IMG/VR virus record: IMGVR_UViG_3300002144_000211
Location: 1 to 29,089 of that record
Strand: one strand, 5' to 3'
DNA length: 29,089 nt
Source of the DNA: a virus
Made by a program: the position numbers and the translations under genes. Shown one piece after another: positions 4,284-25,009 of the stretch. The first letter of the stretch is position 1, and every line of letters starts with the position of its first letter. The notes beneath the pieces were generated by a model that ran no database searches, had not been told where the DNA came from, and saw only the letters and a program-made list of their open reading frames with translations.

Positions 4284-4305
4284 ATATCTTTCCTAGTTTA
4301 ACTGT

Positions 4306-4334
4306 ATTATATTATACTTACTTATTAGTGTCAA
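4306..4334 (-). promoter_or_regulatory. Perfect-consensus sigma70 promoter upstream of the 369-aa gene
   Basis: On the minus strand, TTGACA (4329-4334), exactly 17 bases, then TATAAT (4306-4311) match the sigma70 consensus at all twelve positions. The -35 box contains the TGA stop codon (4331-4333) of the preceding gene. An overlapping second TATAAT (4311-4316) would have only a 12-base spacer. The start would fall near 4299, leaving a leader with AGGAAAG before the ATG ending at 4283. Confidence 0.8.
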
Positions 4335-5256: not shown

Positions 5257-5264
5257 TATTTATA
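5257..5264 (-). promoter_or_regulatory. T4-like late promoter box TATAAATA
   Basis: An exact T4 late consensus TATAAATA on the minus strand, 23 bases upstream of the ATG of the 300-aa gene. It contains the TAA stop (5260-5262) of the 514-aa fibre gene. In T4 this box is read by the phage sigma factor gp55 with its co-activators; I infer the same here. Confidence 0.7.
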
Positions 5265-6804: not shown

Positions 6805-6826
6805 TTTTGCTCCTCGTGCTTACTAG

Positions 6827-6834
6827 TATTTATC
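6827..6834 (-). promoter_or_regulatory. T4-like late promoter box GATAAATA
   Basis: GATAAATA on the minus strand, one mismatch from T4 TATAAATA. It sits directly after the TAA stop (6835-6837) of the 616-aa fibre gene and 22 bases before the ATG of the 514-aa gene. The extended string TAAGATAAATAC is shared in form with the other late boxes of this window. Confidence 0.6.
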
Positions 6835-8685
6835 TTAAACCGCAGATGCTGTGGTTGACTGCCATGTCCAAAGTCCGGCAACAACTTTGAATATTATTAT
6901 ACTACGTGCTACAGTTAAAGTAACACTTACGCCGGTAGGATCACTTATTGATAAGTCTACTAACACACTTTGGTTTTGAACACCAGCACTATCAACTGCA
7001 ACAAAACTTTTATTAAGTCCTGCGTTAACCGTAATAATACCTGTTGTAGCAGTTGTACTACTACCATAAATTTTAGCAACTGTACCATTAGCAGGCGTTA
7101 CTGGAAATAACTCATCTAATATTGTTTGAACGTTGCCTTGTAGTGTTACGCCAGTGCCAAGTCCAGTAATATCAATCCCAAATACTTTTTCTAATGCGCC
7201 TATTTCGTCATCAACATAGCCTTTTGTTGCTACAACTTGATCGTTGTCTTCTGTTAGTAATGGATTATCTACTACTGCTCTAGCACTAACTGGAGTCTTA
7301 ACATTGGTAATTTTATGTTGAGTTACTAACGAAATATCACCACTGGTTTGTATCTCCCAGCCACCTAAGTCAACTGTAAGTCTGTTGTTATTGAAATTAA
7401 ATTTGTCTACTGTTAATTCAGTTAACGTACCTACATTTGTTAAACTACTATTAACAACTGTACTGCCTAGTGTATTTCTATTTAGAAGAATAACGCCGTC
7501 AATACCAAACCATCCTAATGGTTCTTCTATATCTATATTTGTACTACTTGTCCACGCATTAGTAGCTTGTTTCCAAGTCCACGCTTTATCGTCGCCAGCA
7601 ACACGAACAATTATACCAGCATCATCTGCTGCTGCTTCTGTTAGAAGTGTACTATCACTTGTAACACCAAGTTCAATTTGTTTATCTTCAACTCTAAGTG
7701 TAGCAACATCAAGACTTGTAGTAGCACCTTCAACTAACAAGTTTCCAGTTATACGCATATCACCTGTTAAATCAAGCGAGTAAGCAGGTGATGCGTTAAA
7801 CATTCCTATTCTTTTAGCACTAGCATCAAACGTCATTGCGTTATATGTGCCTGCGCCGTCTCTCATATTAATAAACAGATCGCTATTGGTTAGGTTGTTT
7901 TGTATAGTAGAGGTTGTACCGCTTATTCTAATTGTTAAATCGCTATCGTCTCCAATAACAATCCCGCCATCGTTTTTAAAGTTGATTATGCCAGTGGTTG
8001 TGTCCGAGCCTGTAGCACTTAAGAAACTGTCTTTAGTATAAGTGTTACCAAGTTCATCTTCAATACGTAATGCTCTATCAGCAATCCCATTCCAACGATA
8101 GCCACTGTATACGCTGCTAATATTAAATCCTACTAATAAACTAGTAAAACCAGTAATTGCCGGGAAAGGAGTAAATGCTGCTTTAGAATGTATACCTACT
8201 AAACTACCACCAATATAATATTTAGAAATTATTTTATTTTGACCGGTTGTATCTTTTATAGTTTCAATAACATCGCCGGTAACAAGTTGAGTTTTTGTAT
8301 ATTTAGGACCAACTAATACTGTACCTGTTCCGTTGTAAAAAAACAGTTGATCTGTTGTTCCGTTAATAAAGACATCACCTTCAATTAAATTTGATGGTTG
8401 CGATGACGCATATATAGTACTGTCAGTACTTCTAAAAGTAGTACCGTCATAAATTTTCAATCTAGCTGATGCTGTATCATACCATAGTTGTCCTCTTAAT
8501 GGATTACTAGGTGGAGCAGTATTACTAAATGTTTCTAATAATTTTATAAAATTCTCATTTATAAACTCACCAAACCCTTGATAATTTTTTCCAATCAATG
8601 TAAGATTAGTTGCGGTAGTGTTTATTTTACCATCAACTAGATCTACTAACAATGACCCGTCTGTTTTGTTTAGTTTATAACTCAT
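6835..8685 (-). CDS. Tail fibre-like structural protein (616 aa)
   Basis: This is the middle of three tandem fibre-like paralogues. The N-terminal ~220 residues match its neighbours (MSYKLNKTDGSLLVDLVDG, GKNYQGFGEF, LLETFSN, LRGQLWYDT, VLVGPKY, WNGIADRAL). The centre holds a fibre-type repeat region with LTGDMRITGNLLVEG and TLRVEDKQIELG, a combination I recall from marine T4-like phage fibres. It is followed by a DDAGIIVRVAGDDKAWTW block and a short beta C-terminus. It has no collar domain, protease motif or signal peptide. Its ATG overlaps the stop of the preceding gene (TAATG) with GGAG seven bases upstream, so the two fibres are probably made by coupled translation. Likely a trimeric tail or baseplate fibre; its receptor is unknown. 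Confidence 0.88.
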   Translation of the reverse strand: MSYKLNKTDGSLLVDLVDGKINTTATNLTLIGKNYQGFGEFINENFIKLLETFSNTAPPSNPLRGQLWYDTASARLKIYDGTTFRSTDSTIYASSQPSNLIEGDVFINGTTDQLFFYNGTGTVLVGPKYTKTQLVTGDVIETIKDTTGQNKIISKYYIGGSLVGIHSKAAFTPFPAITGFTSLLVGFNISSVYSGYRWNGIADRALRIEDELGNTYTKDSFLSATGSDTTTGIINFKNDGGIVIGDDSDLTIRISGTTSTIQNNLTNSDLFINMRDGAGTYNAMTFDASAKRIGMFNASPAYSLDLTGDMRITGNLLVEGATTSLDVATLRVEDKQIELGVTSDSTLLTEAAADDAGIIVRVAGDDKAWTWKQATNAWTSSTNIDIEEPLGWFGIDGVILLNRNTLGSTVVNSSLTNVGTLTELTVDKFNFNNNRLTVDLGGWEIQTSGDISLVTQHKITNVKTPVSARAVVDNPLLTEDNDQVVATKGYVDDEIGALEKVFGIDITGLGTGVTLQGNVQTILDELFPVTPANGTVAKIYGSSTTATTGIITVNAGLNKSFVAVDSAGVQNQSVLVDLSISDPTGVSVTLTVARSIIIFKVVAGLWTWQSTTASAV

Positions 8686-10700
8686 TAGACTACTCCGTGA
8701 TAGATGATAAAGTTAATAGCAGCAAATGGATTTGTAATATCTACTGCGTCATTAGCTGCTCCGTCAAGGATGCCGCCTGTTCTGGACAATCTAGTACCTG
8801 TACCTGCTGTATCTCCAGAACCTGCTGTAACTTCGGCTCCTGTAGCAGTTGCCGTTGTAGTAGCATAAAACTGTTCGTTTGCGCTACTTTTTAAATCGTG
8901 CTCGTGTTCTGGTAAGTTATCAAGTGTAAGTGTTATGTCTTCACTACCTGATACACCGCCCATTACGCCAGCAGCAGCCTTTGATATTCTATTTGCGCCG
9001 CCGGGTAGTCCTAAACCTACCGGCATACGACCTCTATAATCTGGTATTCTAAACAGCGTAGCCGGATCACTCGGTGTACCCCAATACCATGTTGTAGCAT
9101 CTAAAGCGTCATACCCTAATAGTACTGCTAATGTGTTATATGTAGATAATGCTATTTCGTCACCGTCGCATATAAACCATCCAGTTGGTGCTGTAAAGCC
9201 TGGCCACATCATTATTGAGCCAATTTGGATTGTAGGAACAGTTGATATGATTTGCGCTGTTGTTGCTTTATACAATACGCCGGATCTGTTAACTAAAAAC
9301 TCATCTGTGCTTTGTACTGTAGCAACACTACTTTTGTCATTAACAAAAGCAGGATTTAACGTGGATGTAAATGTTTTTGTGCTGCCGCCCGTTTGTCCAT
9401 CAAAACTAAATCCGCCACTACTGATGTCTCCAGTAATTTGAAATGTAGTTGCTGTGTTAAGTTTAGCAGCAGAAGCAGAAGTTCCACTAATATTACCTGT
9501 AACGTTACCAGTAAGGTCTCCTGTTATTCTGTTAGCATACAAGCTATCATACGGATACACCGAACTACCAATACTTCTTATACCTGCTACATCTGGTAAA
9601 ATATTTTGTGCTTGTAGTTGTCCTAATATGTTAGCACTCGAGCCAACCCAAAGTTGTTTAGCAACTCCTAGTCCACCTTTAATAATAGCACTGCCAGTAC
9701 TTGGTCCTGCGCTGTCTGTAGTCGAATTAACTGTTACTGTGCCACTTGAAATAATGTTTCCAGTAACGTCTAGTGCTTCAGCAGGGTTTAGTTTGTTAAT
9801 TCCTACTTTGCCATCGTTTGCTACTCTCATAGCAGTCAATGCTACGCCGCTGTTTGAAACTCTAAAATCTAATGAGCCGGTTCCTACTTGGTCAAGCACA
9901 CTAGTAGTGCCTTCGCTTATAATCGATAATGTAGTCGGAACTCCTATTTCGATGCCAGAGTTATTTCTAATCTGTATAGGATAGTTTGTTAGGTTAGTTT
10001 CGTCTTTACGCATAAAGACATTACCTGCTACAACAGCACCACTAACTACTACATTTTCTGCTCTGTCCGCTACACCGTTTATTCTTGCGGCAGTTCCGCT
10101 TACGTTTGGACTCAAATTTAATCCAATCTTAATTGTGTTACCGCTATTCCAGCCGCCAATTGATGCTTTAAGATTAAACTGCGCCGACGATAAGATACTT
10201 ACTGGAATGTTATTTGAATAGTTTACAATAACCAATCTATTAACGTCGCTTGTATCAACTAAAGTTTCAGCCAATGCGCCGGTTTTTATGCCGTCACTGT
10301 ATGTAGGTCCTACTAATATCCAGCCGCTGCCGCTGTAAAGATATAGTTGTGTATTAGTTGTATCAACCCAAAGATCGCCTACAACACTGTTGGTACTGTC
10401 TGGTTCAAACGTAGATTTTTTTAGGCCGCCTGCTGCGACCCAATTTGTGCCATCGTATATTTTAAGTTGATTAACACCAGCTGTAGTATCGTACCATAAC
10501 TGACCTTCTACTGGATTACTAGGCGGATTTACATCAGCAAAGTTTTCCATTAAATGTAAAAAATTTGTTAATACGCTCGAACCATAATCCTGAAGGTTTC
10601 TACCAGGAAGTAACAAGCTAGTTTCTGTATTAATTGCGTTGTCTTCTACTGTAATGGTACCTTTGTTAGTATCATCGGTAAACGGAATCTCGTATGCCAT
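8685..10700 (-). CDS. Tail fibre protein with phage tail-collar domain (671 aa)
   Basis: This is the first of three fibre-like paralogues, sharing the N-terminal ~220-residue unit (GRNLQDYGS, LLxFxN-type helix LHLMENFAD, EGQLWYDTTAG, ILVGPTY, RINGVADRAE). The middle contains fibre repeats (VGINKLNPAEALDVTGNI, SGTVTVNSTTD). Residues about 493-560 form a phage tail-collar domain: GSIMMWPGFTAPTGWFICDG, a short insert, then FRIPDYRGRMPVG. After it comes NLPEHEHDL with an H599-x-H601 motif, as in T4 fibre tips that bind metal ions, and a Gly/Thr-rich C-terminus ending INFIIYHGVV. The start is coupled to the stop of the 202-aa gene (TAATG) with a strong GGAGG site. It very likely contacts the host surface, as T4 gp12 does. 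Confidence 0.93.
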   Translation of the reverse strand: MAYEIPFTDDTNKGTITVEDNAINTETSLLLPGRNLQDYGSSVLTNFLHLMENFADVNPPSNPVEGQLWYDTTAGVNQLKIYDGTNWVAAGGLKKSTFEPDSTNSVVGDLWVDTTNTQLYLYSGSGWILVGPTYSDGIKTGALAETLVDTSDVNRLVIVNYSNNIPVSILSSAQFNLKASIGGWNSGNTIKIGLNLSPNVSGTAARINGVADRAENVVVSGAVVAGNVFMRKDETNLTNYPIQIRNNSGIEIGVPTTLSIISEGTTSVLDQVGTGSLDFRVSNSGVALTAMRVANDGKVGINKLNPAEALDVTGNIISSGTVTVNSTTDSAGPSTGSAIIKGGLGVAKQLWVGSSANILGQLQAQNILPDVAGIRSIGSSVYPYDSLYANRITGDLTGNVTGNISGTSASAAKLNTATTFQITGDISSGGFSFDGQTGGSTKTFTSTLNPAFVNDKSSVATVQSTDEFLVNRSGVLYKATTAQIISTVPTIQIGSIMMWPGFTAPTGWFICDGDEIALSTYNTLAVLLGYDALDATTWYWGTPSDPATLFRIPDYRGRMPVGLGLPGGANRISKAAAGVMGGVSGSEDITLTLDNLPEHEHDLKSSANEQFYATTTATATGAEVTAGSGDTAGTGTRLSRTGGILDGAANDAVDITNPFAAINFIIYHGVV

Positions 10701-11308
10701 TATACGTTACCTCCGCTAAGACTTTGTACTCTTACAGTGTAATCAATTTGTATTAATCTGTTTAATGACTTTTGTACTGGGTGGAAAATAACATGTGTTA
10801 GCAGTCTACCTGTTCCGGTTGAACTATAACCTTTTAGTCCTAGTTCATCAAAAACAAATTGCTGTTCAGTATCGCTGGCTGTATCAAACGCATCTTGTCC
10901 ATCGGGTTCGCCGTAATCTAATAAACAACTTACAACGATGTCGGTATAGTTTGTACCGCTGATGTGTCTAGTTTCGGTCTTATTTCTAGTAGGATCAACA
11001 TTGTTTACACTACGATCGTCAACAACTTTAGTATAAGTTTGATTATACAAACTAGCATTAGTACCAGTACTATTGGGTGTAAGGTAAGTAATAATCCCTG
11101 TAGGATCAACACTAGTACCGCCGTTACCAAATGCCATTTCGTAAATAAATCCTTGTCCGGCATTGCCTAGACTTTCAGCTAAACTAATGCTCATATTTTC
11201 ATAATGAATTGCGTTACGCTTGTTCACAATAACTTCCCCAGATTCTGGGTTAAATATTTTAATGTGTCCTTCTACGTGAACTCCGGTTAATTCGTCAGTT
11301 TTTTTCAT
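10700..11308 (-). CDS. Conserved T4-like marine phage structural protein (202 aa)
   Basis: The N-terminus (VHVEGHIKIFNPESGEVIVN, then NAIHYENMSISLAESLGN) and the following IYEMAFGNGGTSVD block are familiar from virion structural proteins of marine T4-like phages, where the gene lies between the baseplate and fibre genes. The C-terminus (HVIFHPVQKSLNRLIQIDYTVRV) is strand-rich. There is no membrane segment or enzyme motif. The start has a GAGGT site and lies 18 bases after a GATAAATA late box, which overlaps the stop of the giant upstream gene; its own stop overlaps the next ATG. Its position suggests a small connector between the baseplate wedge and the fibres, perhaps taking the place of T4 gp8 or gp9/gp10-type proteins. 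That assignment is inferred; membership of the conserved structural family is from memory. Confidence 0.82.
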   Translation of the reverse strand: MKKTDELTGVHVEGHIKIFNPESGEVIVNKRNAIHYENMSISLAESLGNAGQGFIYEMAFGNGGTSVDPTGIITYLTPNSTGTNASLYNQTYTKVVDDRSVNNVDPTRNKTETRHISGTNYTDIVVSCLLDYGEPDGQDAFDTASDTEQQFVFDELGLKGYSSTGTGRLLTHVIFHPVQKSLNRLIQIDYTVRVQSLSGGNV

Positions 11309-11326
11309 GTTACCTCACCTATACTG

Positions 11327-11334
11327 TATTTATC
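11327..11334 (-). promoter_or_regulatory. T4-like late promoter box GATAAATA
   Basis: GATAAATA on the minus strand, 18 bases before the ATG of the 202-aa gene, containing the TAA stop (11330-11332) of the 4559-aa gene. The downstream bases CAGTAT also follow the TAAATA box before gp25, suggesting a wider shared late-promoter context. Confidence 0.6.
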
Positions 11335-14300
11335 GCGCCAACGATATTGTTTTGTCCTTTATAAATCTTGCGATTTGATTGTTACTATCACTTATACTTT
11401 TGTTTAAATCATTCCAAGTTTTTCCAAGTTTTCTAACAATTTGTATTTTTATGTTATTTGCCGGAGTATCCGTTAATGATAAAATATTATCTTCGAGCGT
11501 AAATTCTTTTGGAAGAATAATATCACCATCGGTACTGTCTTGAGCTATTGTAATATCAAATGAAGCAAGTGTATGATTACGTAATCTTCTTCCTGCTACA
11601 AATACTTCAAACTCATTTATGCTTGTTGGTGTAAAGTCTAGCACAAAGTCGTTTGTACTACCGTCTCCTACAAACACAGTTGTATATGTTTCATCTTTAT
11701 AAGGAATTGTTTCTTCTGGGCCTTGTCCGGCTACAACTGTACCAACTGGATACTGTAATTTAGCGCCAGTGCCAAGTGTACTTCTGCGCAGTTGACGCAG
11801 TAAATTACCGTCCTTGGCATAGTACTCAATACGTTCTCCTTGTATAAAGACAATTCCCGGACTACCTGTATTTTTGTTTGGCTCGGTAATACCTGTAGCA
11901 TCAGCAAGAACAATACTTAAATCATAATAATTTAATGGCTGTGCTAACTGGTACTCGTTATCTTTATTTAGACGTTTGTAATGTGTTCTATTAAGCATGT
12001 CTTTAAAAATACGATAGCCGTATTTTGGAGAACTTACTGGAGCAGCAAAATGAATTACATCAATAGTATCGCCCGGACGAACTCTTTCAACAAGTTTAAT
12101 AGTATCCATTGTGCTTGTTAATTTATAATCAACATTAGCACTTAACAACGTACCATTTTTAATTATCCAAACATATTCAGAACCAAGTGTTGTACTACGT
12201 AACTTGATGTAGCCTCTTGACAACAAGTTTTTATCAAGATATTCTTGAGTTCCTTCAGGAGCATAAGATGTATAGAATACTACATCGTAACTTGTACGAT
12301 CAAATTGGTTAATATCGTGGTTACTAAACACATGTATTTTTACAGCATTAGTAGGAGCAATAGCAAATGTTAAATTATTACTTTCTATAGTATATACATC
12401 ATCAAGCACTACATTGCTACTGTCGTAAACAGAAACACTAGATCCATCATTTATTATAATGCTAGGAGTGTTGTCTGTTGTCATTAAGTTGTGTAATTCT
12501 CTTACATAACCGTCTAACACAACAGTTCTTTCGTCTTTAGTGGCATCACCTATTATTGTATCTCTTGAAGATGATTTTATAGTAGCTGTAATTACAGTAC
12601 TATCATCTGCTAGTTTGATTTGTATCTCAGTACCTGCTTGTAGTTCTTCTATTTGACTTACGTTTGACATTTTAAGAACTGTATCTACAAAATAATAATC
12701 AGCGTCTTTAATGATTATTACTTCCATTGTATCACCAGCAAGACCTACATTATTTTTTAATAGTTCAATACGTCCGTTAACTGGGTCCCACGAATAGTCA
12801 TCTTTAGTTATTTGTACTCCGTTGATATAGCACAATACATCGCTTTGAGTTATTTCTGTTATATCAGCAAACTGCCAAGATGCTATATCATACGCTCTGT
12901 CAACAGTCAACGTATAAAGTTCTCTGCGTCCTGGGTTTAAAATAATATTGCCAACTTGCGCTAGTATGTTATGACTAAATGGTTTACTAACATAAGGCAA
13001 CGTATCAAACGTGTGAACCTTGTTAATGCCATCAGCAATAAAAGTATTATCAATTAGAAGCTGACTATATTGATTAGTGTTGCCATTGTATATAGTGTAA
13101 GTAATTACGCTACCTGCTGCCGGAGCAGTAACAAATAATAATTCTGCTGTATTACTTGACGATTGTACTAATTCAACACTTGAGCTTACAATACCGTTCA
13201 CTGCTATAAACGCGGTTATCTCAGTATTATATGTAACATAAGTTTCAAATCCTATTTTATCTCCGTCGGCAATAAACTGATCGCTGTCTAGTATATCATT
13301 GCCGTTACTACTTATAAGTGTGATACTTAATTTTTGTCCTTCTACTAATAAAGAACTATCAGTAAATACTAACTTTTTATTAGCATAATCAATTTCATAA
13401 TTATCTTTTTCAAGTATGATATTATCTAACTTAACAATGGTACTAGTACTAGCTTGTGGCAAGTTACTAATATTCCACTCAACTGTTTCACCATCGGTAA
13501 TATAGTTGTGTACAGTAATAATACCCTGACCGTCGCTTACTCTATTGTATACTCTTAAATCAAGTGTATCGTATATTTGCCCTGGTACGTTTTCTTCAGG
13601 ACCTTTACTGTTTGTTTCAGTAACAAATCCATCGCCGTCAACTACAATATCGCCGCTGTTGATACCTTTAGCATTTGTATACAACAGGTTGCCGCCATCT
13701 AAAGAAACGTCATAACTAGTAGCATCTGGAGTAAAGCTACCATCGCTTGTAGATTTACGTATAATTATAACATCGTTTGCTCTTGTTTCGATAACGTCAT
13801 TATCAATGTAGAACGTGTTTGTAATACCATCGCCAGTAATACTTACCATAACAGCATTTGGATTAATTACAACACTACTTCCGTCGTAGCTAGGATCGTC
13901 TAATCTAACATTATTTTTATAGATGTTATAAACAACACCTGCTTCCAACGTAGTGCCAAGTTCAATAATTTGAGTACTGCCATCAAGTACAAAGATTAAG
14001 TCTTCGTATGTTGTGTCATATGTATCAAACGGTTCGGCACCAAAGCCTAAGCCATTAGCAACGTCAAACCCTCTGTTTGTATTAAAGGAGATTGTGTCAA
14101 CTTGTACACCGCCGTAATCAATGCCATCCATAAGTTGGCCAAGATCTTTGCCTAACATTCCTGTAGTTGGATTATACAGCCAGTTGATACGATCAACAGC
14201 ACTCATCATTTCTGCTGATTTTTTGTATTCAACAACAATAGCTTTTCCAGTAGCAGGTGCATTTGTAAATATTACCTGTCCTAGGTATCTTCTGTATCCT

Positions 14301-17300
14301 TTTGAAAGATCTAAATTATTAGTCACAGTGTATTCACTACTTAATAATTGTACACCAGCAACATATACTTTTACATTAGCACGTTTTGTATCTAATGGGA
14401 ATTTTAAATTAAATTCAGTTGTGCCGCTATTACCAGTAAACGTCTCTGTTTCAGATAATACTGTAAACAAATAATTTCCACTTGTTCTATCAAATTTAAT
14501 TAACATGTGTGTCGAACGTATTTTACTATTACCAATTATAGCAGATGCTCTAGCTATTGTTCCGTCTTCTGTTTGACTACCGTTGATTGAAATAGTAGGA
14601 GAACTTAAATATTTTGCTCCAACTGTATCTACTTCAATACTGTTAATTGAACTACCTACTAATGATGCGTATCCAATAAGTGTTGGGCCGCCGCCGCCGC
14701 TAACAGTTACAACAGGACTATCTGTATAACCAGTGCCTGCATCGGAAACTTTAAATTCAGTAATATCAAACCCAAGATTGTCTAACCAGTGTTTTTGAGG
14801 ATATGTAGTTGTGAATTGATTTGTTCCAACTAATACATTGTCAATGACTTTAATACTTTCACCAATAATCTTTTTAGCAACAGTATCATAACGTGGTGGT
14901 AAGTCAAAGTCAGTTACACTTGTTTGAGTAGGTTCATTTCTTTCGTACGCACTTACGTATTCTCTAACTTTAGTACTGTATGGTTTTACTTCATTGACGT
15001 AATCCTGATAATTTTCAAGATTGTCATTTTTGTATGTAATGCGTTGATCAAACTCGCCAACATTGTGCTTTGCTTTCACAAAGCTAGTTTTAAATACCCA
15101 ATCAACGTTGGTTTGTTCTGCCATAGTATATCTTATACTAGCAAAGAATAATTTATTCCACTCAACTTCTAGTTGATCTACAAATATATCATTACGTAAA
15201 GAATACATAATATTTTTAATTTCATCAACTGGCTCTCTGTCATACAATGCCGCATCGTAAACTTGATTGTCAAATCCACTTGAAGTATTATTATATAACA
15301 AGTTTGAAAGTTGTATAGTGCCGTTTTCTCTACCAATTGTTTCGTAGTTAACAGTATAATCAACTTCTGCTTGATTATCTATTTTCTTTAACAATAACCA
15401 ACCGCCCGAACCAATAGTGTCTATTTTTACAATTGACCCAATTTTATCATTTAGTCCAGCAAGAGCATAGCTTCCAGGAACAGAATAATTAATAGCAGTT
15501 GTAAGATCGTATCCAGTTGCGTACCAATCTTTATAAGTCCAATATAAACTAGTGTCGTACTTTTGTAAACTTACTCTGTACCATTCTTTTGTAGTAGTAT
15601 CATATGAGTACAATGACCAAAAGCCAGCCGCAGTACTATCGCTATTAACAAGCACACTAAAAGGTCTTACAGTTATTGTAGTATTACTACCATAATTTCT
15701 ACCTTGTTTTAATACTACAGCACCGGTTACCTGTCCAAGATTGTTAATATAAAGTTGTATCTTTGCGCCGGTTCCTGTACCGGTAATAGTAACAGTAGGT
15801 CCTAAGCGTTCAGTTGACGCCGTTGTGTATGCCGGGTCAGTGTAACCTCTACCAGGATTAGTAATAGTAACATTAGTTATTTTACCATCAACGATTGTCG
15901 GTAATAATGTTGCTTTAGTAATTCTAGCAACGCCAACAAATCTCAGTAAGTTTTCACTTTCGATTGTCACATCCCATTGTCTACTATATGTACTTGGAGC
16001 AGTATCTTTTGTAGATAGCGAACTGATATTAAAGTCATCAACAATCAAGTTACTTGATAGTACGTCATTGACTCTATCAACTACTTGTTTTAATGCTTCT
16101 ATTCTGTTAACAAACATGCTTTGATTTGGAGTATTTAGAACGCCATAACGTCTAGCAATACTAATAGAAGTATCCGGCAAAGGATTACTATTTTTATCGT
16201 ATCCTGCTAAACTATCAATCCATTTTTGTACAATGTCGTTATTAGGTTTACTCGAAGGTACGCCTTCGGTTAATAATTGATATTCGCTGTGAACGTTTGT
16301 GTCGTCTATTTCAATTATGTCATATTCAAAGTGTATTATAGTATCAGTATCTTTAATAAGACCTTTTACATTATGTAACGCAAATCTATCATTACCTAAC
16401 AACGAAACAAATCTATATCCCGAACCAGCAGGATCTTGAATAAGATTAATTACACTAGCACAACTTATTTTTCTGTTATCTGTATTTGGAATAATGCTTG
16501 GACTGCGTACCCAGAAATAATACTTTCTTGAGAATGTGCCCGAGACCGAATCGTAAACTTCTTTTCTTACATACGAAAGGTCGCTGTACTTACTAGTACC
16601 ACTTACACCTTCAGAAGCACCTTCTGTTGTTCCTGTAAGATCGTCCCACTCGCTTGGCAAGTAATCGCTTTCAACCCATTCATAAACATCAACACTAAAT
16701 CCCGGAATAACTTTGTTCCAGTTGTTTGATCTATACTCGGTGTTTCCTTGATACGGGTTATACCATTTTACTGTACTTAGATCCCACCATAGTTTTCCTA
16801 GATTTTCATTACCCCACGGTGATCCAGTTCCAGTATCAGTAGAACCAATGTTATAAACTGCCGGGTCGTAATACAACTTAAAAGTTATTTCTTGATCGGC
16901 TGTACCAGCAATTTTTCCTTGAATTGGATCAACATAATCTACGTAAGATATTAAATCGCTAGTATTTCTGTCATATAAGAACACACCGCGCATTTTACTA
17001 GTATCTACAAAATCAATACCTACACTATTACTCGTCCATGCTTTACTATTTCTAGCACTCATAAAGTCTATAATTAACCCAGTTTTAGTTTCAGAATAGG
17101 CAGTTCCGGGTGCTCCAACAATAAGATGATTGTTAGATAGAATAATATTTGGATTTCTAGCATCTTTTAAACTACGAGTGTAAAGCATTTTCTCAGCATA
17201 TACAAATACACCGTTGATGTTTTCAAACATGTATACTTGTCCAGTGTCTTCTAATGTATCAACAAATGCTGTTGCTTTATTATCAAATATTGTAGTGCCG

Positions 17301-20300
17301 TTATCCAATAGCATTGTTGATTCGACAATACTGTCAGTACTCATTACTGCTAAACGATTATTAGAAAAGTCTACTTGATATCCAAATAGCTCATTTTTAT
17401 TTCCAATAGGAGCATACAGTTCTTGTACTAATTCAAATGTTCTTTCACCTAACGGAACACTAGTATTGTATTTGTAAACATAAACTTTGCCATTGTCAAT
17501 TCCGGTGCTATCATTTAGTATTGCGCTGATTGCAATATAACTACCGTCATCACTGATAGCACTGCTATATCCAAATGCTTCTTCAAATATAGTTGGGTCT
17601 AAACTTTGTCTATATTCGTATCTTCCTTCGTTATTTTTTCTATATATAGAAACACGGTATTCTGTAGTATCGAGAAGTCCTGTTATGATCAGTACTTCGC
17701 CGTTTTTACTCATATCAAAACTTTTAGCAATATCACTAGCACTTCCTAATCCAGAACTATCACTGTCCTCATCAAGCACATCGCCAAAGTTTGGAATAAA
17801 TCCAACATAGTCTACATACTCACTTAATTGTTCCCACGGATTGTCTCCGGCATCGCCGGGTAGCACGCCACTACTAGCAAATACATTAGTTGTTGCTTTA
17901 TATAGATTACCAAATTGATACACAATTTCATTAGTCACATAGTTTAGTAATTCGTTAAAAGTTCCTCTGTAGCTTCTATCTCTTGTGTAGCGGAAGTAAT
18001 CGGTTGTAGTAACGTCAGATTCCATAAAGTAAAGTCTACCTGTTCCGGCAGCACTTCTAATATAAACTCTATAAAGATTTGAACTTGTAAATGCTGTTTT
18101 TACAGCAGTACCAAACTTGCCATTGTTTATAGGCATTGGACTAATGTTTGCGCTGATTTCTCTAAAGCTGTTGTTATTCTGTCTTTTAAAGATGTGTAAT
18201 ACACCTTGATTTGTTAAACCGCTTCCTACAGCATCGGCATCAACTGTAATAACATCAACCGCATCCCAGTCTTGATTCAGTGTGTTAATTGTACTATTGT
18301 CGCCTGTTACTGCAACTTTTGCTTTCCACAGTGTTCCTCTATCGCTAACAATGTCACCGGCACTATAACTGCCTAGTGGATCAATTTCGCCTTTGTAATA
18401 AGTTTTTACATTACTTGCTAAAGGGGCGCCAACAAATAGGTACTGTCCATCTCCTGTTAAACTTACACTTGTACCAAACCCAGCACCGGCGTCATATTGG
18501 TTTGCGTCAGGTGAAATTGTTTGTAATAATGTGTAATTGTTATTTTCACTTAATCTACTATAAATGTAAATGCCGCCGTTATCACCAAGCTCTGGTATAC
18601 CAACTGCCATAATAGTATTTGAATCGTTAACCGAAATTATTAAAGCATAATCACCATCAAGGCCGCCTTCTGGATTTACTATTTCTTGTTTTAGTGAAAA
18701 TACAGGATTATTATCAAATACTTCAAACTTGTTGTTGCCGTTGTTATCAACCCAAATTCTGTCAGCATTTTCAATGTCATATCTTTTAAGTTTATCGTTA
18801 ATTGCCGATACATTATTAAATCTTCTACTATCAAGTACTGATATAATACCTAGCGTACTATCACTATAATCTGTAGATGTACTAACAATTGGAGTATCTG
18901 TATAGAATTCAATAACATTTTTAGAAATTGATCTTGCTACCCAGAATCCGTTAACGTCATCGCTAAGGCCAGCAATGCCAACTATAGTTCCAACTGTAAA
19001 CGGAACGTTGTCATTAAATGTTGCTCTAAATCCAAGATCAGTTTTTTCAATAAGTTCTATTCTAACAGGTGATAATATGTGTTTGTAAACATCCCATGTT
19101 TGCTTATATTGAGGAACCCAAATGTATGTTCCAATGTCTAAAGTATTAATATCAATTGAAAGCACATCTGTTAATGTTTTAGAAATCATATTAATCTGAC
19201 TTAGTTTAACGTAGCCGCCTGTTTTACTAACTTCATCTGTAGTAAATGTAGTAGGAAACGGAGTATGTGTATAAATTTCAGGTTTTACATAAACTTTGTT
19301 TACCGGATACTGATATACAAGATCTGTTCTACTTTGATTTACAGAACTTACAAGTTCAACAATCTGTGGTTCGATTCTAAACTGTGTTTCGTTAAGCTGA
19401 TATTCAACTTCTTCAAAACTATCAGTAGCACCGTACTGTCCAGTACGAATTGCCCATTCTTCGTAGAACTCTAAACTGTCTTGGTTAGCACTTCCTAGCT
19501 TTTCAAATAGTTTTGTTAACGCATTATTAGTACCTTTGTCTTGTATAAATCCTTGGTAGAATTTGTACTGACTAACATCATCTTGAATAATGTTTTCAAG
19601 GTATTGACGCTTTTGATAACCAATTAAGTGTTGAGCTAAACGCTGTTGTTCACTGTCAAAGTTATCGGTATCTAAGTCATAAAAGTCTGCAAACTGATTT
19701 GCTTTATAATCCCAGTTTGCTTTTAAACTACTTACTGGACGTTCGGATAGCAAAGTCCAATCAGTATCATCAAACGATACTTTTCCAGTATGCTTAAATC
19801 TTGCGCTATAATAAAATTCTTTATATTTTACAAGATCGCCAATCGCATAATCTTTCCAATCTTTCCATTCAGTTACAACTGCTTGGTCATATATAAATCC
19901 AGGAATATTTAAACTGCCTGTCCAGCCATCAGTTCTATACCCTACAACTTTAATACGTTCTTGTCTGTAGCCCGGTTCGGGATCATAAATGGTATCATTG
20001 AATACTGTAATGTTATCAATAATAATAGCATGTTCTTTTTGTATTAAAGGAAGTTTAAGGAAGAAAATTCCGTCATTTGTATTTGCTGGTTCTAATGAAA
20101 ACTCATTAGCATTATCTCTGTAAACATTTACAAAAGAAGTATTAAACGATGTGCCGTCTGCTTTTAGTATAGGATAGTTATAAAAGCTGTTAAACACGTT
20201 ATCAACAATGTGATATGCTCTTTTAAATTTAATTTGATTTGCAGCTGGGCTTAAAGTAATGATACTGCTTACTGCCCAATTTTGTGTAGTCCAAAATAGG

Positions 20301-23300
20301 AACTCTTTAGAAATCAGTCTAAAGTTTTCAACCGCTTCGGTGTCTTTGTTAACGTATTCAAATTCAAATCCTAAACTTTTTAAATAGCTTTCATACCCTA
20401 GTAGGAAATCTACAACAGCCTGAGCATTAGTTAACACTGCGCCATAATTTAATCTGTTTACAACAGTTTCAAAGTTATTAGCAAATGTAGCGCCGACGCC
20501 GCCGACAATAGGAAGTGCCGAAAGTCTAGAATAATATTGAGGATCAAAAGAAGTTGAGGTTACATGATTTTGATTTACTCTATAATATGCTTGCTCATAT
20601 CTTATAATCTTTCCAGCAACTAATGTATTGTTTTCATTCCACTCAATAAAACTTTCACTAATTCCACCAACGTTTACAGTCGGATCACTGTTTGTTACTT
20701 TTACACTGTTATATAAAAAATAAGGATCTTCTTTATCGTATCCTGTTATTCTATAGCCGTTGCCAGTTTTTTCAACAATAACACCACTGTAACTTACTAC
20801 ATCTAACGCATTACTCGATCTTAAAATAATGTCATAGTTTTCATAAGGAACAAATACATTTCCTTTATTTAAAGGAGTACGGCTATCTAGTACTAAACGT
20901 AGTTTTTCTTTTTCAGCGAACCCGCCAAGTTTAAATCCTAGTTTGTTTTTAATGCCTTTTAGTGTAGTCATGTAATTAGAATAATTTGTAGTAACATTAC
21001 TTTTCATATAGTCAGCAACAAAGTTTATTAACCCTGCTGTAATGTAATATGTAGTATCTTGTTTTGTACCAGGAAACACTAAATCTTCTAAACGTAATCT
21101 TTTACCACTAGCACTATAAGAAATATTACCAGCAAGGTCTCTTGCTATTCTACTACGATCAAAATTAATACCCATTACTTGTGCTGGTCTTAATAGTAGC
21201 AACGCTGTTAGTAAAGAATACGGGTAATCGCTACTACGTCTCCATGCTGTTTCAGTAGGTGCTTCGTCGCCAAATTCAAACAAATCTCTGCTACTAACAA
21301 CATAGCTAAATCCTCTAGCATAACTGCTTTCTAACGGACTTAACAGTTGGCCAAATTCATTTGTGGGAATATGACCTGTTAACCCAGGACGAACGTATTT
21401 TTTGTCTCGTATTACTGCTTTACCTGGTTCTTTAATAGCACCTTGTTCAAGGTCTTGCCAAAGAATTAAGTTGTCGCTAGTATATGGAGCAGGACCGTAT
21501 ACCGATTCCCACCAAGAAGGCTTGCTACTAAATCCTAGCATTTCCCAAGGATGGGTATGCGGGCGATCGGTATCGTATGCTTGTTTGTAAACAGCACGCC
21601 AAAAACCGGGTAACGGGTTGCCAGTAGGAGAAGACGATCTACTATAATTGTAAGTAAACGAACTACCTTGACTTACTATACTATTAGTTGTATAGTCGGC
21701 ATCGCCAACTAGTTTTAACCAATCAACAAAATCAGTAATCATAATAGTGTCAACATCGTTTTTAGAAATGTTAGTATTTCTAAAATTACCTTCTACGTAT
21801 TCAGACAGGTCAAATATACTAGCATTGTATCTAACTTTTATATTGTTGTAAATTCGTTTTTCAAACTCTAATAATAATTGGTCTCTGTAATCATTATAAG
21901 CAACTGTTAAACTGCCATCGTGGCCTCTTATAACAGTTGTTGGTGTAGCATACGAAGTGTCTAAAAATATTTCAGGTTCGTATGCCGGAAATAACCCAAA
22001 CGAAGTTGGAGTAGGTGGAATAAAACTTGCTTCGGTATTTTCATATTCGTAAATTTCAATAACATTGTTGTTTTCTAACGTCGATGTAATATAAACAAAT
22101 CCAGTATCTGTAAATGTGTAATCGCGACTATATGTAAGCTGAGTGCCGTTTACATAAATGTTAACTGCTTTGTTTGTAACTGTATTAATATTAAACGGAG
22201 TCGTTAACGCATAATATTGTGTTCTATAATCGAGCACTGTATAAGTTAATACTTTAGCAGCGCCAAACGCTAACATGTCGCTGCTATAGAATGGCATACG
22301 AGCAGTTTTGTCTTTGTTTAATTCACCTAATACATGGTCAACATGTTGCTTTGTAAGACCGTCAAACCCTGTATCAGCTGACATTTGCAAAAATGCTCTT
22401 TTAAACTTACTATATTCTTTTTTAGCAAATCTCAATGATTTGATAATGTTTGAAACGTTATCTGTTAAATGATATAAAGGAAGATTGAGTGGACCACTAT
22501 GTTGAACAAACTTTCTACCAAACATAGCAACTTGACCTAAATCTCTTAGATTACCAATACCTGGCTGATAGCCAACATATGCTGGCATTTCTGCTACAAG
22601 ACTTTCTACGTGATCGTTAACTTGCCCTAACGTAAATTCCACTATATTGTTGTTTAACGGATTTCTTTCAAAGTTATGAGGTATCTCATAATATCCTACA
22701 GAATTTTTTGGTGTTTTACTATGTGCTTTAATAACCAATATATCAGCAAATTCAATATCTTTATTCATAACAATAAAACGAACACGGTTTTGATTAACAA
22801 AACTGTAATCTCTACCGCTTATCATTAGTTTGTTATTTAAAAAAACTCTAATATCTAGATCGGTTAATTCCGCACTATAGTCAAACATGTCTACAGGAAA
22901 ACTATTTGTTCTGTCATTTCCGGTAAACTTACGAATTACAAACTGCTGACTTTTAACATTAGCTTTAGTCCAACTGTTAACATATTCAAATCCTTCAACA
23001 TTATATTTTTTTAGAAATAATGTGTCACTTTTAATAGTAAGCACTTGGTTCAAATATTCGTAAGTATATGTATTATTCAATAAGTTAAAGTCAAAGACGA
23101 TATCGCCAACATTACTAATATTTTTATAACTTAACGGAAATCCTAATTCACTATCGTTGGCGCCAGTTCCGACTCTATAAGAAAATATTCTATTTCCAGT
23201 AAAGTTACTTGCTGGATATGAATTGTTATCGCTAATACTAACTCCATTAGTATCGTATAAGTTAAACAACGGGGCTTGATTTACTCCAGTTTTATCCTGA

Positions 23301-25009
23301 GCCAATTTCCATTCTGTTCCGTTATACCAGAACATTTTACCAGCATACTTGTTTCCTTGTTTTATTAAAATAGTTTCATCTAAAATAGGAGTTGTGTCGT
23401 CTGTTTCTATTAAACTAATTTGATATCTATTGTTATGAGTAATGTATTTTACAATAAATATTTTGCCATTTACAAAGCTGTCAGCGTCGGCTGTAAATAA
23501 AACTCTCATTCCATCTACTAAATCAATGCCATCAACGTTATAACCAGTACTACCTTCAATAGTACTAAACACATCTGGTGTAAAAGTATCAACTAGATCA
23601 ACATTTTCTTTTCTAGTTGTTCCATGGTTGTATAATCTTATATTTTCTTCAAACTCAATGATAGGACGTTTTGCTCTTGCTGTTTCGTCTATTTCAATGG
23701 GCTGGTTGTTAATTACTGCGCTTTGTTCAATAATACTTTTATGGAACCAACGATTGTAACGAGCCCATGCGTTTCTTGCACGGTCTTTTCTGTTCATTAC
23801 AATATAGTCTGTTGTTCCAGCAAAACTTAAAGCATCACTAAATGGAACACGATCAAACCCTTCTGTGTCAAAAGGTACTTTTGTATCTTGTGTAAAGATA
23901 GCCGGTACTTCTAAGTCGTTTGACGATACAAGTTTAATCTTATCTCCAACACCCTCGACATAGTAAAACCCGGCAGCATAACTAGCAGGAGTTACATTTC
24001 CTTGGAAGTAAACTTTCATGCCATTACTCAATGCCCAACCACTGCTTGTTGTGTAATATTTTTTATCTAATATTTCAACTTCAACGTCAATTTCACTAGC
24101 ATCTTCAATGTCATAAATTTGAAACGAGCCACTAGTATTAATATCATATTGACTAATATAATAAAGTGTATCAGGCGCATTCATCGGAACTGTAAATTCT
24201 AAAACGCCTTTTTGAATAAAACCAGCACCAACAAAGTCAGTTTGTGTTACAAGTGTTTCGTCAGTTGCGTGTGTTAACGTAATACCGTCTTCGTATAATG
24301 TTGTAATTATACTACTATCAGCATCAACTGCTGGCTGGAAAGCTCTACTAATAGCAATACTAATTGGATGGCCAATTGTATCAACTTCAAATTTATAAGT
24401 TTGTCCTCTGTATAGTTTTATATTTGGATTTCTTGTTTTTCCATTTGGAGTAAAAAGATAAGCAACGTTATCATCATCTGTTACTGTAGCAACTGTATAT
24501 GTGCTTACAATATTTGTACTTTGACCTCTTACTGGTACTTCTTGTGGACCATTTGGAAGCCAATAGTATTCACGGAAATTAGTAAATTTATCAAAATCAA
24601 TATGTGGGTTCCAAGCATAAAACTCTTGGCTGTTTAATAAACTATGATTGTCTACGTTACTACGAAATGATTTTAAAATACCAATGTAATCTAGGTAGTC
24701 TTTATCAAATGTAATATTGCCAATATTATCTGTTTTAACAGCAAATGTTTCTAGTTGATAGTCTTCTCTATCTTTTGTAACATCGGCTAGATAGTTGTCA
24801 TCAATAGCAACTGCCTTTGCTACTCTACTACCTACAAACGAATTAATTTTTTCAATAACACCAGGTGTAGTTAATTGATCAATTGTACTTGCCAAGAATT
24901 TTTTATTAGTATTAGTTCTAAAATATCTAGGTAATAATTCAGCACTTGTACGTACTACATTGTTACCCTGTGGCAAAGGATATTCGTTTTGATCATCGTT
25001 ATAAGCCAT
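11330..25009 (-). CDS. Giant multidomain baseplate/virion structural protein (4559 aa), gp7 position
   Basis: One uninterrupted frame encodes a protein of roughly 500 kDa that starts two bases after the gp6 stop, with AGGAAG nine bases upstream of the ATG. Residues about 20-165 (LLPRYFRTNTNKKFLASTID, INSFVGSR, FREYYWLPNGP) and blocks near 1150 (DTDRPHTHPWEMLGF), 3225-3370 (NVDWVFKTSFVKAKHNVG) and the C-terminus (GERIEYYAKDG, LRRSTLGTG) resemble giant structural proteins I recall from marine T4-like phages. Visible modules are: FVNG/GDG-type beta repeats at about 700-760, 936-1000 and repeatedly from 3520 to 4535; three W-Y-GD-V modules resembling carbohydrate-binding family 5/12 (about 1715-1757, 2205-2245, 2350-2395); an FG-GAP-like propeller at about 2115-2645; and GxGY repeats at 3040-3115 and 3419-3480. 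T4 gp7, the wedge initiator in this gene position, has about 1030 residues. Equivalence to gp7 is inferred from gene order only. Confidence 0.9.
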   Translation of the reverse strand: MAYNDDQNEYPLPQGNNVVRTSAELLPRYFRTNTNKKFLASTIDQLTTPGVIEKINSFVGSRVAKAVAIDDNYLADVTKDREDYQLETFAVKTDNIGNITFDKDYLDYIGILKSFRSNVDNHSLLNSQEFYAWNPHIDFDKFTNFREYYWLPNGPQEVPVRGQSTNIVSTYTVATVTDDDNVAYLFTPNGKTRNPNIKLYRGQTYKFEVDTIGHPISIAISRAFQPAVDADSSIITTLYEDGITLTHATDETLVTQTDFVGAGFIQKGVLEFTVPMNAPDTLYYISQYDINTSGSFQIYDIEDASEIDVEVEILDKKYYTTSSGWALSNGMKVYFQGNVTPASYAAGFYYVEGVGDKIKLVSSNDLEVPAIFTQDTKVPFDTEGFDRVPFSDALSFAGTTDYIVMNRKDRARNAWARYNRWFHKSIIEQSAVINNQPIEIDETARAKRPIIEFEENIRLYNHGTTRKENVDLVDTFTPDVFSTIEGSTGYNVDGIDLVDGMRVLFTADADSFVNGKIFIVKYITHNNRYQISLIETDDTTPILDETILIKQGNKYAGKMFWYNGTEWKLAQDKTGVNQAPLFNLYDTNGVSISDNNSYPASNFTGNRIFSYRVGTGANDSELGFPLSYKNISNVGDIVFDFNLLNNTYTYEYLNQVLTIKSDTLFLKKYNVEGFEYVNSWTKANVKSQQFVIRKFTGNDRTNSFPVDMFDYSAELTDLDIRVFLNNKLMISGRDYSFVNQNRVRFIVMNKDIEFADILVIKAHSKTPKNSVGYYEIPHNFERNPLNNNIVEFTLGQVNDHVESLVAEMPAYVGYQPGIGNLRDLGQVAMFGRKFVQHSGPLNLPLYHLTDNVSNIIKSLRFAKKEYSKFKRAFLQMSADTGFDGLTKQHVDHVLGELNKDKTARMPFYSSDMLAFGAAKVLTYTVLDYRTQYYALTTPFNINTVTNKAVNIYVNGTQLTYSRDYTFTDTGFVYITSTLENNNVIEIYEYENTEASFIPPTPTSFGLFPAYEPEIFLDTSYATPTTVIRGHDGSLTVAYNDYRDQLLLEFEKRIYNNIKVRYNASIFDLSEYVEGNFRNTNISKNDVDTIMITDFVDWLKLVGDADYTTNSIVSQGSSFTYNYSRSSSPTGNPLPGFWRAVYKQAYDTDRPHTHPWEMLGFSSKPSWWESVYGPAPYTSDNLILWQDLEQGAIKEPGKAVIRDKKYVRPGLTGHIPTNEFGQLLSPLESSYARGFSYVVSSRDLFEFGDEAPTETAWRRSSDYPYSLLTALLLLRPAQVMGINFDRSRIARDLAGNISYSASGKRLRLEDLVFPGTKQDTTYYITAGLINFVADYMKSNVTTNYSNYMTTLKGIKNKLGFKLGGFAEKEKLRLVLDSRTPLNKGNVFVPYENYDIILRSSNALDVVSYSGVIVEKTGNGYRITGYDKEDPYFLYNSVKVTNSDPTVNVGGISESFIEWNENNTLVAGKIIRYEQAYYRVNQNHVTSTSFDPQYYSRLSALPIVGGVGATFANNFETVVNRLNYGAVLTNAQAVVDFLLGYESYLKSLGFEFEYVNKDTEAVENFRLISKEFLFWTTQNWAVSSIITLSPAANQIKFKRAYHIVDNVFNSFYNYPILKADGTSFNTSFVNVYRDNANEFSLEPANTNDGIFFLKLPLIQKEHAIIIDNITVFNDTIYDPEPGYRQERIKVVGYRTDGWTGSLNIPGFIYDQAVVTEWKDWKDYAIGDLVKYKEFYYSARFKHTGKVSFDDTDWTLLSERPVSSLKANWDYKANQFADFYDLDTDNFDSEQQRLAQHLIGYQKRQYLENIIQDDVSQYKFYQGFIQDKGTNNALTKLFEKLGSANQDSLEFYEEWAIRTGQYGATDSFEEVEYQLNETQFRIEPQIVELVSSVNQSRTDLVYQYPVNKVYVKPEIYTHTPFPTTFTTDEVSKTGGYVKLSQINMISKTLTDVLSIDINTLDIGTYIWVPQYKQTWDVYKHILSPVRIELIEKTDLGFRATFNDNVPFTVGTIVGIAGLSDDVNGFWVARSISKNVIEFYTDTPIVSTSTDYSDSTLGIISVLDSRRFNNVSAINDKLKRYDIENADRIWVDNNGNNKFEVFDNNPVFSLKQEIVNPEGGLDGDYALIISVNDSNTIMAVGIPELGDNGGIYIYSRLSENNNYTLLQTISPDANQYDAGAGFGTSVSLTGDGQYLFVGAPLASNVKTYYKGEIDPLGSYSAGDIVSDRGTLWKAKVAVTGDNSTINTLNQDWDAVDVITVDADAVGSGLTNQGVLHIFKRQNNNSFREISANISPMPINNGKFGTAVKTAFTSSNLYRVYIRSAAGTGRLYFMESDVTTTDYFRYTRDRSYRGTFNELLNYVTNEIVYQFGNLYKATTNVFASSGVLPGDAGDNPWEQLSEYVDYVGFIPNFGDVLDEDSDSSGLGSASDIAKSFDMSKNGEVLIITGLLDTTEYRVSIYRKNNEGRYEYRQSLDPTIFEEAFGYSSAISDDGSYIAISAILNDSTGIDNGKVYVYKYNTSVPLGERTFELVQELYAPIGNKNELFGYQVDFSNNRLAVMSTDSIVESTMLLDNGTTIFDNKATAFVDTLEDTGQVYMFENINGVFVYAEKMLYTRSLKDARNPNIILSNNHLIVGAPGTAYSETKTGLIIDFMSARNSKAWTSNSVGIDFVDTSKMRGVFLYDRNTSDLISYVDYVDPIQGKIAGTADQEITFKLYYDPAVYNIGSTDTGTGSPWGNENLGKLWWDLSTVKWYNPYQGNTEYRSNNWNKVIPGFSVDVYEWVESDYLPSEWDDLTGTTEGASEGVSGTSKYSDLSYVRKEVYDSVSGTFSRKYYFWVRSPSIIPNTDNRKISCASVINLIQDPAGSGYRFVSLLGNDRFALHNVKGLIKDTDTIIHFEYDIIEIDDTNVHSEYQLLTEGVPSSKPNNDIVQKWIDSLAGYDKNSNPLPDTSISIARRYGVLNTPNQSMFVNRIEALKQVVDRVNDVLSSNLIVDDFNISSLSTKDTAPSTYSRQWDVTIESENLLRFVGVARITKATLLPTIVDGKITNVTITNPGRGYTDPAYTTASTERLGPTVTITGTGTGAKIQLYINNLGQVTGAVVLKQGRNYGSNTTITVRPFSVLVNSDSTAAGFWSLYSYDTTTKEWYRVSLQKYDTSLYWTYKDWYATGYDLTTAINYSVPGSYALAGLNDKIGSIVKIDTIGSGGWLLLKKIDNQAEVDYTVNYETIGRENGTIQLSNLLYNNTSSGFDNQVYDAALYDREPVDEIKNIMYSLRNDIFVDQLEVEWNKLFFASIRYTMAEQTNVDWVFKTSFVKAKHNVGEFDQRITYKNDNLENYQDYVNEVKPYSTKVREYVSAYERNEPTQTSVTDFDLPPRYDTVAKKIIGESIKVIDNVLVGTNQFTTTYPQKHWLDNLGFDITEFKVSDAGTGYTDSPVVTVSGGGGPTLIGYASLVGSSINSIEVDTVGAKYLSSPTISINGSQTEDGTIARASAIIGNSKIRSTHMLIKFDRTSGNYLFTVLSETETFTGNSGTTEFNLKFPLDTKRANVKVYVAGVQLLSSEYTVTNNLDLSKGYRRYLGQVIFTNAPATGKAIVVEYKKSAEMMSAVDRINWLYNPTTGMLGKDLGQLMDGIDYGGVQVDTISFNTNRGFDVANGLGFGAEPFDTYDTTYEDLIFVLDGSTQIIELGTTLEAGVVYNIYKNNVRLDDPSYDGSSVVINPNAVMVSITGDGITNTFYIDNDVIETRANDVIIIRKSTSDGSFTPDATSYDVSLDGGNLLYTNAKGINSGDIVVDGDGFVTETNSKGPEENVPGQIYDTLDLRVYNRVSDGQGIITVHNYITDGETVEWNISNLPQASTSTIVKLDNIILEKDNYEIDYANKKLVFTDSSLLVEGQKLSITLISSNGNDILDSDQFIADGDKIGFETYVTYNTEITAFIAVNGIVSSSVELVQSSSNTAELLFVTAPAAGSVITYTIYNGNTNQYSQLLIDNTFIADGINKVHTFDTLPYVSKPFSHNILAQVGNIILNPGRRELYTLTVDRAYDIASWQFADITEITQSDVLCYINGVQITKDDYSWDPVNGRIELLKNNVGLAGDTMEVIIIKDADYYFVDTVLKMSNVSQIEELQAGTEIQIKLADDSTVITATIKSSSRDTIIGDATKDERTVVLDGYVRELHNLMTTDNTPSIIINDGSSVSVYDSSNVVLDDVYTIESNNLTFAIAPTNAVKIHVFSNHDINQFDRTSYDVVFYTSYAPEGTQEYLDKNLLSRGYIKLRSTTLGSEYVWIIKNGTLLSANVDYKLTSTMDTIKLVERVRPGDTIDVIHFAAPVSSPKYGYRIFKDMLNRTHYKRLNKDNEYQLAQPLNYYDLSIVLADATGITEPNKNTGSPGIVFIQGERIEYYAKDGNLLRQLRRSTLGTGAKLQYPVGTVVAGQGPEETIPYKDETYTTVFVGDGSTNDFVLDFTPTSINEFEVFVAGRRLRNHTLASFDITIAQDSTDGDIILPKEFTLEDNILSLTDTPANNIKIQIVRKLGKTWNDLNKSISDSNNQIARFIKDKTISLAR

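Follow-up and report, generated by a model that had tools for sequence, protein, structure and literature searches.

A 29-kb linear IMG/VR fragment from a marine virus (the window, i.e., the whole stretch of 29,089 nucleotides that was analyzed) encodes a giant protein directly after a gp6-like gene, at the place that gp7 occupies in T4. This locus raises the question of whether the giant is a gp7-class subunit of the tail baseplate wedge or owes its place to operon order only.

The Giant Open Reading Frame and Its Neighbors

A first-pass annotation of the window had described an uninterrupted 13.7-kb frame of 4559 residues lying between gp6 and small connector or fiber genes. Both statements proved correct. 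An open frame of 4559 codons would arise by chance with a probability of ~10^-149 (independent bases, the ORF's 34% GC), and no DNA tandem repeats were found as a source of its length, only scattered short chance-like matches. The giant starts 2 nt past the stop codon of the gp6-like gene, which is preceded by a gp25-like gene, and on its 3' side are a 202-aa gene and then three fiber-like genes (table 1).

Several observations were made on the genes downstream of the giant. The N-termini of three consecutive fiber-like genes (5260-10700, minus strand) match the same PHROGs (14394 and 15511), suggesting a common attachment module. The 514-aa protein among them has a sub-threshold match to Peptidase_G2 (autoproteolytic chaperone) close to its C-terminus. 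Proteins of 369 and 300 aa (3174-5233, minus strand) are similar by eye, both containing "GGEIRF" and "MGT.RFG" segments, and are probably paralogs.

Table 1. Features of the giant gene and of its neighborhood in the window
Feature	Position	Strand	Evidence
Giant 4559-aa structural protein (phrog_10938), gp7-position	11330..25009	-	ORF call; PHROG match; 13.7 kb; ATG start
gp6-like baseplate wedge subunit, 1152 aa	25012..28470	-	phrog_10646 and phrog_219 ("baseplate wedge subunit"); TIGR02243 partial match 3.6e-7, under its cut-off
gp25-like sheath-initiator/wedge subunit, 145 aa	28526..28963	-	PF04965 1.3e-8
202-aa conserved protein (phrog_11259), possible fiber adaptor	10700..11308	-	PHROG match; aligns with PA5oct, Phosso, SCTP-2, Vibrio phage 2.275, and Atu_ph07 proteins
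Conserved N-terminus, residues 1-150	24560..25009	-	Alignments
CBM5/12-like module 1, residues 1450-1500	20510..20662	-	PF02839 4.2e-8 (slice with both modules); internal repeat pair
CBM5/12-like module 2, residues 1712-1758	19736..19876	-	Internal repeat of module 1; chitin-binding domains are the model's best PDB matches, short
Strongly conserved block, residues 1757-1862, proposed gp7/gpI wedge-core helices	19424..19741	-	Conservation in 20 diverse members; profile scans and nulls; helices predicted, low confidence
KGT helix-turn-helix, residues 1809-1849	19463..19585	-	Top window versus gp7-core and P2 gpI profiles
FG-GAP (propeller-like) region, residues ~2100-2660, between two conserved blocks	17030..18712	-	PF14312 1.1e-11; limits approximate
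Second conserved block with KPYSTKVR motif, residues 3225-3370	14900..15337	-	Conservation
C-terminal region with fiber-like beta units, residues 3515-4559	11333..14467	-	Internal repeat units at 3523, 3725, 4049, and 4445

Distribution and Gene Order of the Giant Family

The giant is already of a catalogued kind and not unique: it belongs to phrog_10938 ("virion structural protein"; 1137 bits, E-value reported as 0), whose members include RaK2 ORF070w, CBB_236, 121Q gp582, PA5oct gp355, and Atu_ph07 gp180. These homologs of ~3300-4550 aa occupy the same gene place in their jumbo myophages, are homologous to the window protein across most conserved stretches, and are virion-associated in CBB and PA5oct. 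The window protein is longer than those of most isolates (3315-3857 aa), those of Atu_ph07 (4449 aa) and Phosso (4555 aa) being close to it, and its insertion between the two conserved blocks is larger than in the RaK2 and PA5oct types.

Analysis using tblastn detected the N-terminal third of the giant in 58 phage records, most of them from jumbo myophages. The matches included Agrobacterium Atu_ph07, Sinorhizobium Phosso, Pseudomonas PA5oct-like, Klebsiella RaK2-like, Escherichia 121Q-like, and Erwinia/Serratia/Pectobacterium CBB-like phages, Salicola SCTP-2, and Vibrio 2.275.O. A scan of IMG/VR yielded 164 matching stretches and later scans several hundred, with relatives at well over 100 loci; a PA5oct query gave no match in the viral contigs. 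Apart from an 1825-aa fragment of one split gene, distinct complete giant ORFs are 3315-4896 aa long when measured between stop codons. At one locus (L029, 9974-23943), the giant is found in two frames of 2842 and 1825 aa, possibly because of an assembly frameshift.

The gp25-gp6-giant order was observed in most phages examined (PA5oct, CBB, RaK2, Atu_ph07, 121Q, Phosso, and XacN1). Of 213 loci at which an ORF of at least 300 aa abuts the giant upstream (the loci partly overlap and are not 213 independent contigs), 212 have a gp6-like ORF there, with a median gap of 1 nt. SCTP-2 is an exception to this gene order, with no recognizable gp6 directly upstream of the giant. Its gp6 place (L088, 4624-13914) holds a 3096-aa ORF without a match to the gp6 family profile.

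Search for Separate gp7, gp8, gp9, and gp10 Proteins

In a 2010 comparison, gp7 was among the genes common to non-cyanophage T4-like phages (PMC3037559). The initial reading of the window had recognized no separate gp7, gp8, gp9, or gp10. For the first three this holds above Pfam cut-offs: PF23786 (gp7-like), PF09215, and PF07880 (gp8, gp9/10) gave no separate match in G000 and nine jumbo-phage records (PA5oct, CBB, Atu_ph07, RaK2, Phosso, SCTP-2, the partial genome of Vibrio 2.275, 121Q, and XacN1). PF23786 misses T4 gp7 itself and is a weak test for a separate gp7, and divergent proteins could escape. Two weak PF07880 matches (E = 0.001-0.003) came from short frames in SCTP-2 and Vibrio 2.275, and the T4 control was positive. 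No sign of a gp8, gp9, or gp10 fusion in the giant was found, as neither PF09215 nor PF07880 had a match in G000.

The statement on gp10 stands only in part. The Pfam gp9/10 model stays below its cut-off, but the 671-aa gene at 8685-10700 (minus strand) matches the Phage Tail Collar domain (1.1e-11) and, weakly, Gp10_C (0.006). For a PA5oct gene in the equivalent region, the depositor noted "T4-like gp10".

Domain Organization of the Giant

The giant had been described as a mosaic of a conserved N-terminus, conserved blocks near 1150 and 3225-3370, sugar-binding-like modules, a propeller, and serial beta repeats, and our analyses agree with this description: these segments are conserved, and CBM_5_12, FG-GAP_2, and scattered fiber-type beta units were found. 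In an alignment with nine isolate homologs, identity is highest in residues 1101-1200; residues 401-700, 1801-1900, 2701-2800, and 3201-3400 are conserved too. Few parts of the family are as strictly conserved as the block at 1757-1862, which contains invariant F, Y, K, G, and W residues. Further fiber-like beta units lie near residues 694 and 934, and Gly-rich modules at residues 3030-3115 and 3403-3495 resemble modules of the S-RIM14 protein discussed below.

The CBM_5_12 match scored 33.5 bits against a Pfam cut-off of 26.2, and in a Foldseek search, a model of this region matched chitin-binding domains over a short length (E ~0.05). Part of the giant may bind receptors, the basis for which is similarity to CBM5/12 and FG-GAP sequences only. 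The variable part of the giants is the interval between the KGT and KPY motifs, which are 901-2301 aa apart in relatives if two values of 99 (L066 and L218) are set aside.

Similarity to the gp7-Class Wedge Core

None of the gp7, gpI, and TssG models of Pfam, PHROGs, and NCBIfam (the last searched with residues 1490-1959) matched the giant directly. The T4-type gp7 domains PF21427, PF21428, and PF21456 (Gp7_5th, Gp7_6th, and Gp7_helical) matched T4 gp7 itself but not the giant. PF23786 also gave no match to the giant, pairwise hhalign of 400-aa slices against T4-only gp7 gave no clear signal, and phmmer and hmmsearch comparisons with PDB sequences gave no meaningful match. Because the T4-specific models and PF23786 had no match, a broad gp7-core profile was built from T4-type, X1/Mendera, OC, and cyanophage S-RIM14 proteins and 80 IMG/VR gp7-like proteins, together with a second profile of the P2 gpI family. 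In positive controls, the T4 gp7 family matched X1 (6.6e-8) and OC (1.8e-9), and X1 matched the S-RIM14 core (1e-7).

The family profile of the giant was cut into 81 overlapping windows of 165 aa, and both profiles were scanned over these. For each of the two, all three top-ranked windows contained residues ~1809-1849, around FYQGFIQDKGTNNALTKLF, with KGT aligned to KGT. The top score was 27.0 for the gp7 core (mean 13.2, sd 3.9) and 26.1 for P2 gpI (next distinct score 16.9). The maxima of 398 shuffled or reversed windows were 22.8 and 17.9 for the gp7 core and gpI, respectively, those of the gp6 window background 20.8 and 16.8, and no other tested protein of the window scored above 17.4 and 19.2. 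The KGT resemblance was first seen by eye, and the 81-window scan and the nulls came later as its test. The matches are short (19-38 columns), with single-pair E-values of ~0.001-0.002 that are unscaled to a database. The next-best gp7-core windows, residues ~1527-1549, match the gp7 N-terminal helix, and residues 1766-1796 are predicted, at low confidence, to form helices.

A profile match of the KPYSTKVR block to the gp7 HPAG/HPAGF motif failed. It is possible that this block is the second half of the wedge core, although the profiles do not support the HPAG similarity. The downstream 202-aa protein, which also follows the giant in PA5oct, Phosso, SCTP-2, Vibrio 2.275, and Atu_ph07 and is possibly a fiber adaptor, was ruled out as the true gpI by profile scores of 11.6-12.9.

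The short, weak KGT matches and the unmatched second motif would be expected if the resemblance were convergent and the giant had replaced gp7 in function while being unrelated to it by descent. We consider this improbable, as the same block, in an identical register, is selected by both the gp7-core and the P2 gpI family, and a gp7 core opened by insertions is found at the same gene position in S-RIM14. We favor the reading that the giant is a gp7-class subunit of the tail baseplate wedge, with a probability of roughly 0.7, based on its place after gp25-gp6, its virion family, and the KGT block found by two profiles. In this protein, a wedge core of the gp7/gpI/TssG type would have been opened by large insertions containing carbohydrate-binding-like modules, the FG-GAP region, and fiber-like beta units.

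Predicted Structures

AlphaFold models had a mean pLDDT of 62.7 for the KGT-to-KPY slice of 121Q and of 76.7 for residues 1490-1959 of the window protein, in which the KGT helices had values of ~57-65. Foldseek searches with these low- to medium-confidence models retrieved no gp7-like solved structure and no wedge protein; the matches were instead to giant phage proteins including that of Atu_ph07 (viral library) and to chitin-binding domains (PDB). Considering the short alignments, the failed HPAG match, and the lack of core-fold confirmation by AlphaFold and Foldseek, both the gp7 role of the giant and its homology to gp7/gpI/TssG are likely but not proven. The proposed equivalence to gp7 is partly supported, by gene place and by the KGT block in two gp7-equivalent profiles, but not by T4-specific gp7 models or solved gp7 structures.

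The lack of a direct match to database models of gp7 and of a confirmed fold, together with the fiber-like and carbohydrate-binding-like look of much of the chain, might also indicate a peripheral baseplate or fiber-scaffold (receptor-binding) protein whose position next to gp6 reflects nothing but operon order. The role of gp7 would then have been lost or be filled by an unrecognized protein elsewhere. This seems unlikely to us. Two gp7-equivalent profiles pick the KGT block above their nulls, the core is conserved, and the linkage to gp6 is strict. Moreover, PF23786 finds no other gp7-like gene in the nine jumbo-phage records (a weak test, see above), and the 202-aa and other downstream proteins match neither the gp7 nor the gpI profile.

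Comparison with Known Wedge Proteins

T4 gp7 (1032 aa; PDB 5iv5 and 5hx2) shares with the giant its place after gp6 and a KGI/KGT helix-turn-helix, and T4 has separate gp8, gp9, and gp10. In P2 gpI, the KGT helix is followed by an acidic/Trp strand, as in the giant (EWW vs. EEWA, by eye). P2 gpI has 176 aa and XM1 gp17 242 aa, and no insertion of giant size is present in P2 gpI (compared by profile), XM1 gp17, TssG, or the gp7-like part of Afp12/Alg12 (XM1, TssG, and Alg12 being compared from published descriptions alone).

The pairs gp6/gp7, gpJ/gpI, and TssF/TssG have been proposed to be equivalents (PMC6300606). In solved systems, a core bundle is formed in which a gp7-class subunit joins two chains of the gp6 class, while its inserts and C-terminal parts hold spikes or fibers (XM1 gp17, PMC10457771; AlgoCIS, PMC8894135; TssF2-TssG, PMC6300606). 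For example, tail spikes are bound by the inserts of the XM1 gp7 ortholog gp17 (PMC10457771), and the gp7-like part has been termed an evolutionary hotspot (PMC8894135).

Another parallel is the 6198-aa structural protein of S-RIM14 (RW030110_088), which, like the giant, directly follows gp25-gp6, has a KGT motif and large insertions, and contains Gly-rich modules in common with the giant (BLAST 1.7e-7). Unlike the window protein, it retains three ordered PF23786 pieces and a clear HPAGF motif, and S-RIM14 encodes gp8-like and gp9/10-like proteins in genes of their own. By hmmsearch, the profile of the window family as a whole did not retrieve the S-RIM14 protein. The KGT-to-HPAG distance is 171-585 aa in small gp7-like ORFs and ~2812 aa in S-RIM14. 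The S-RIM14 protein displays a gp7 core opened by insertions more clearly than the giant does. In the S-RIM14 locus (L105, 317-18913), the PF23786 pieces are in order and split by long insertions within one 6200-codon frame, annotated only as structural protein.

Presence of Homologs in Virions

The giant had been called a structural protein, a claim that would fail if it were absent from virions. Virion data for relatives speak for presence. CBB_236 was represented by 21 unique peptides (7.7% coverage) in virion mass spectrometry (PMC5259590), and PA5oct gp355 carries the depositor's note ESI-MS/MS. In phAPEC6, gp245 (381.9 kDa; 17 peptides, 7.6%), which is taken as a homolog by size and position rather than sequence comparison, is listed next after the "baseplate wedge" gp244 (PMC7247149).

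Filaments are present on CBB and phAPEC6 (PMC7247149 for the latter), and so long a chain could in principle belong to these hair-like whiskers or to other tail appendages and not to the baseplate. We regard this as very improbable. The gene is linked to wedge genes, and it is also present in PA5oct and Atu_ph07, for which no claim of filaments was found. The giant also yields fewer peptides per residue than the neighboring gp6 (21 vs. 13 for 3340 vs. 1154 aa in CBB; 17 vs. 21 for 382 vs. 131 kDa in phAPEC6), a low density that, while not quantitative, fits a low copy number.

Possible Function and Implications

If the giant is the gp7-class subunit, its KGT block would, by analogy with solved systems, build the wedge core by packing against two gp6-like chains. 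From the wedge, the C-terminal tail and the large inserts, with their carbohydrate-binding-like, FG-GAP, and fiber-like beta parts, would radiate as arms for host contact and fiber attachment. Upon host contact, the arms might move and, through the core, transmit this movement to the sheath and the gp25-like protein, in line with proposals made for the baseplates of T4 and eCIS.

In a wider context, the gp7/gpI core may have been opened in several marine and jumbo myophage lineages by insertions of ~900-2800 residues, so that a single chain of ~0.35-0.7 MDa is a wedge subunit that doubles as a host-contact arm. Expansion would then have recurred between the KGT helices and the closing motif, from 176 aa (P2-size) to more than 6000 aa; we see the chances of this scenario as about even. 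Members of the family are common in marine viral contigs and among jumbo phages that infect Gram-negative hosts, and most records describe them only as "hypothetical" or "virion structural protein". If the giant is gp7, an apparent gap in jumbo-phage baseplates would be closed, and the giant would be a place to look for host recognition built into the wedge itself. The KGT block (residues 1757-1862) offers structural biologists a specific target to place in maps.
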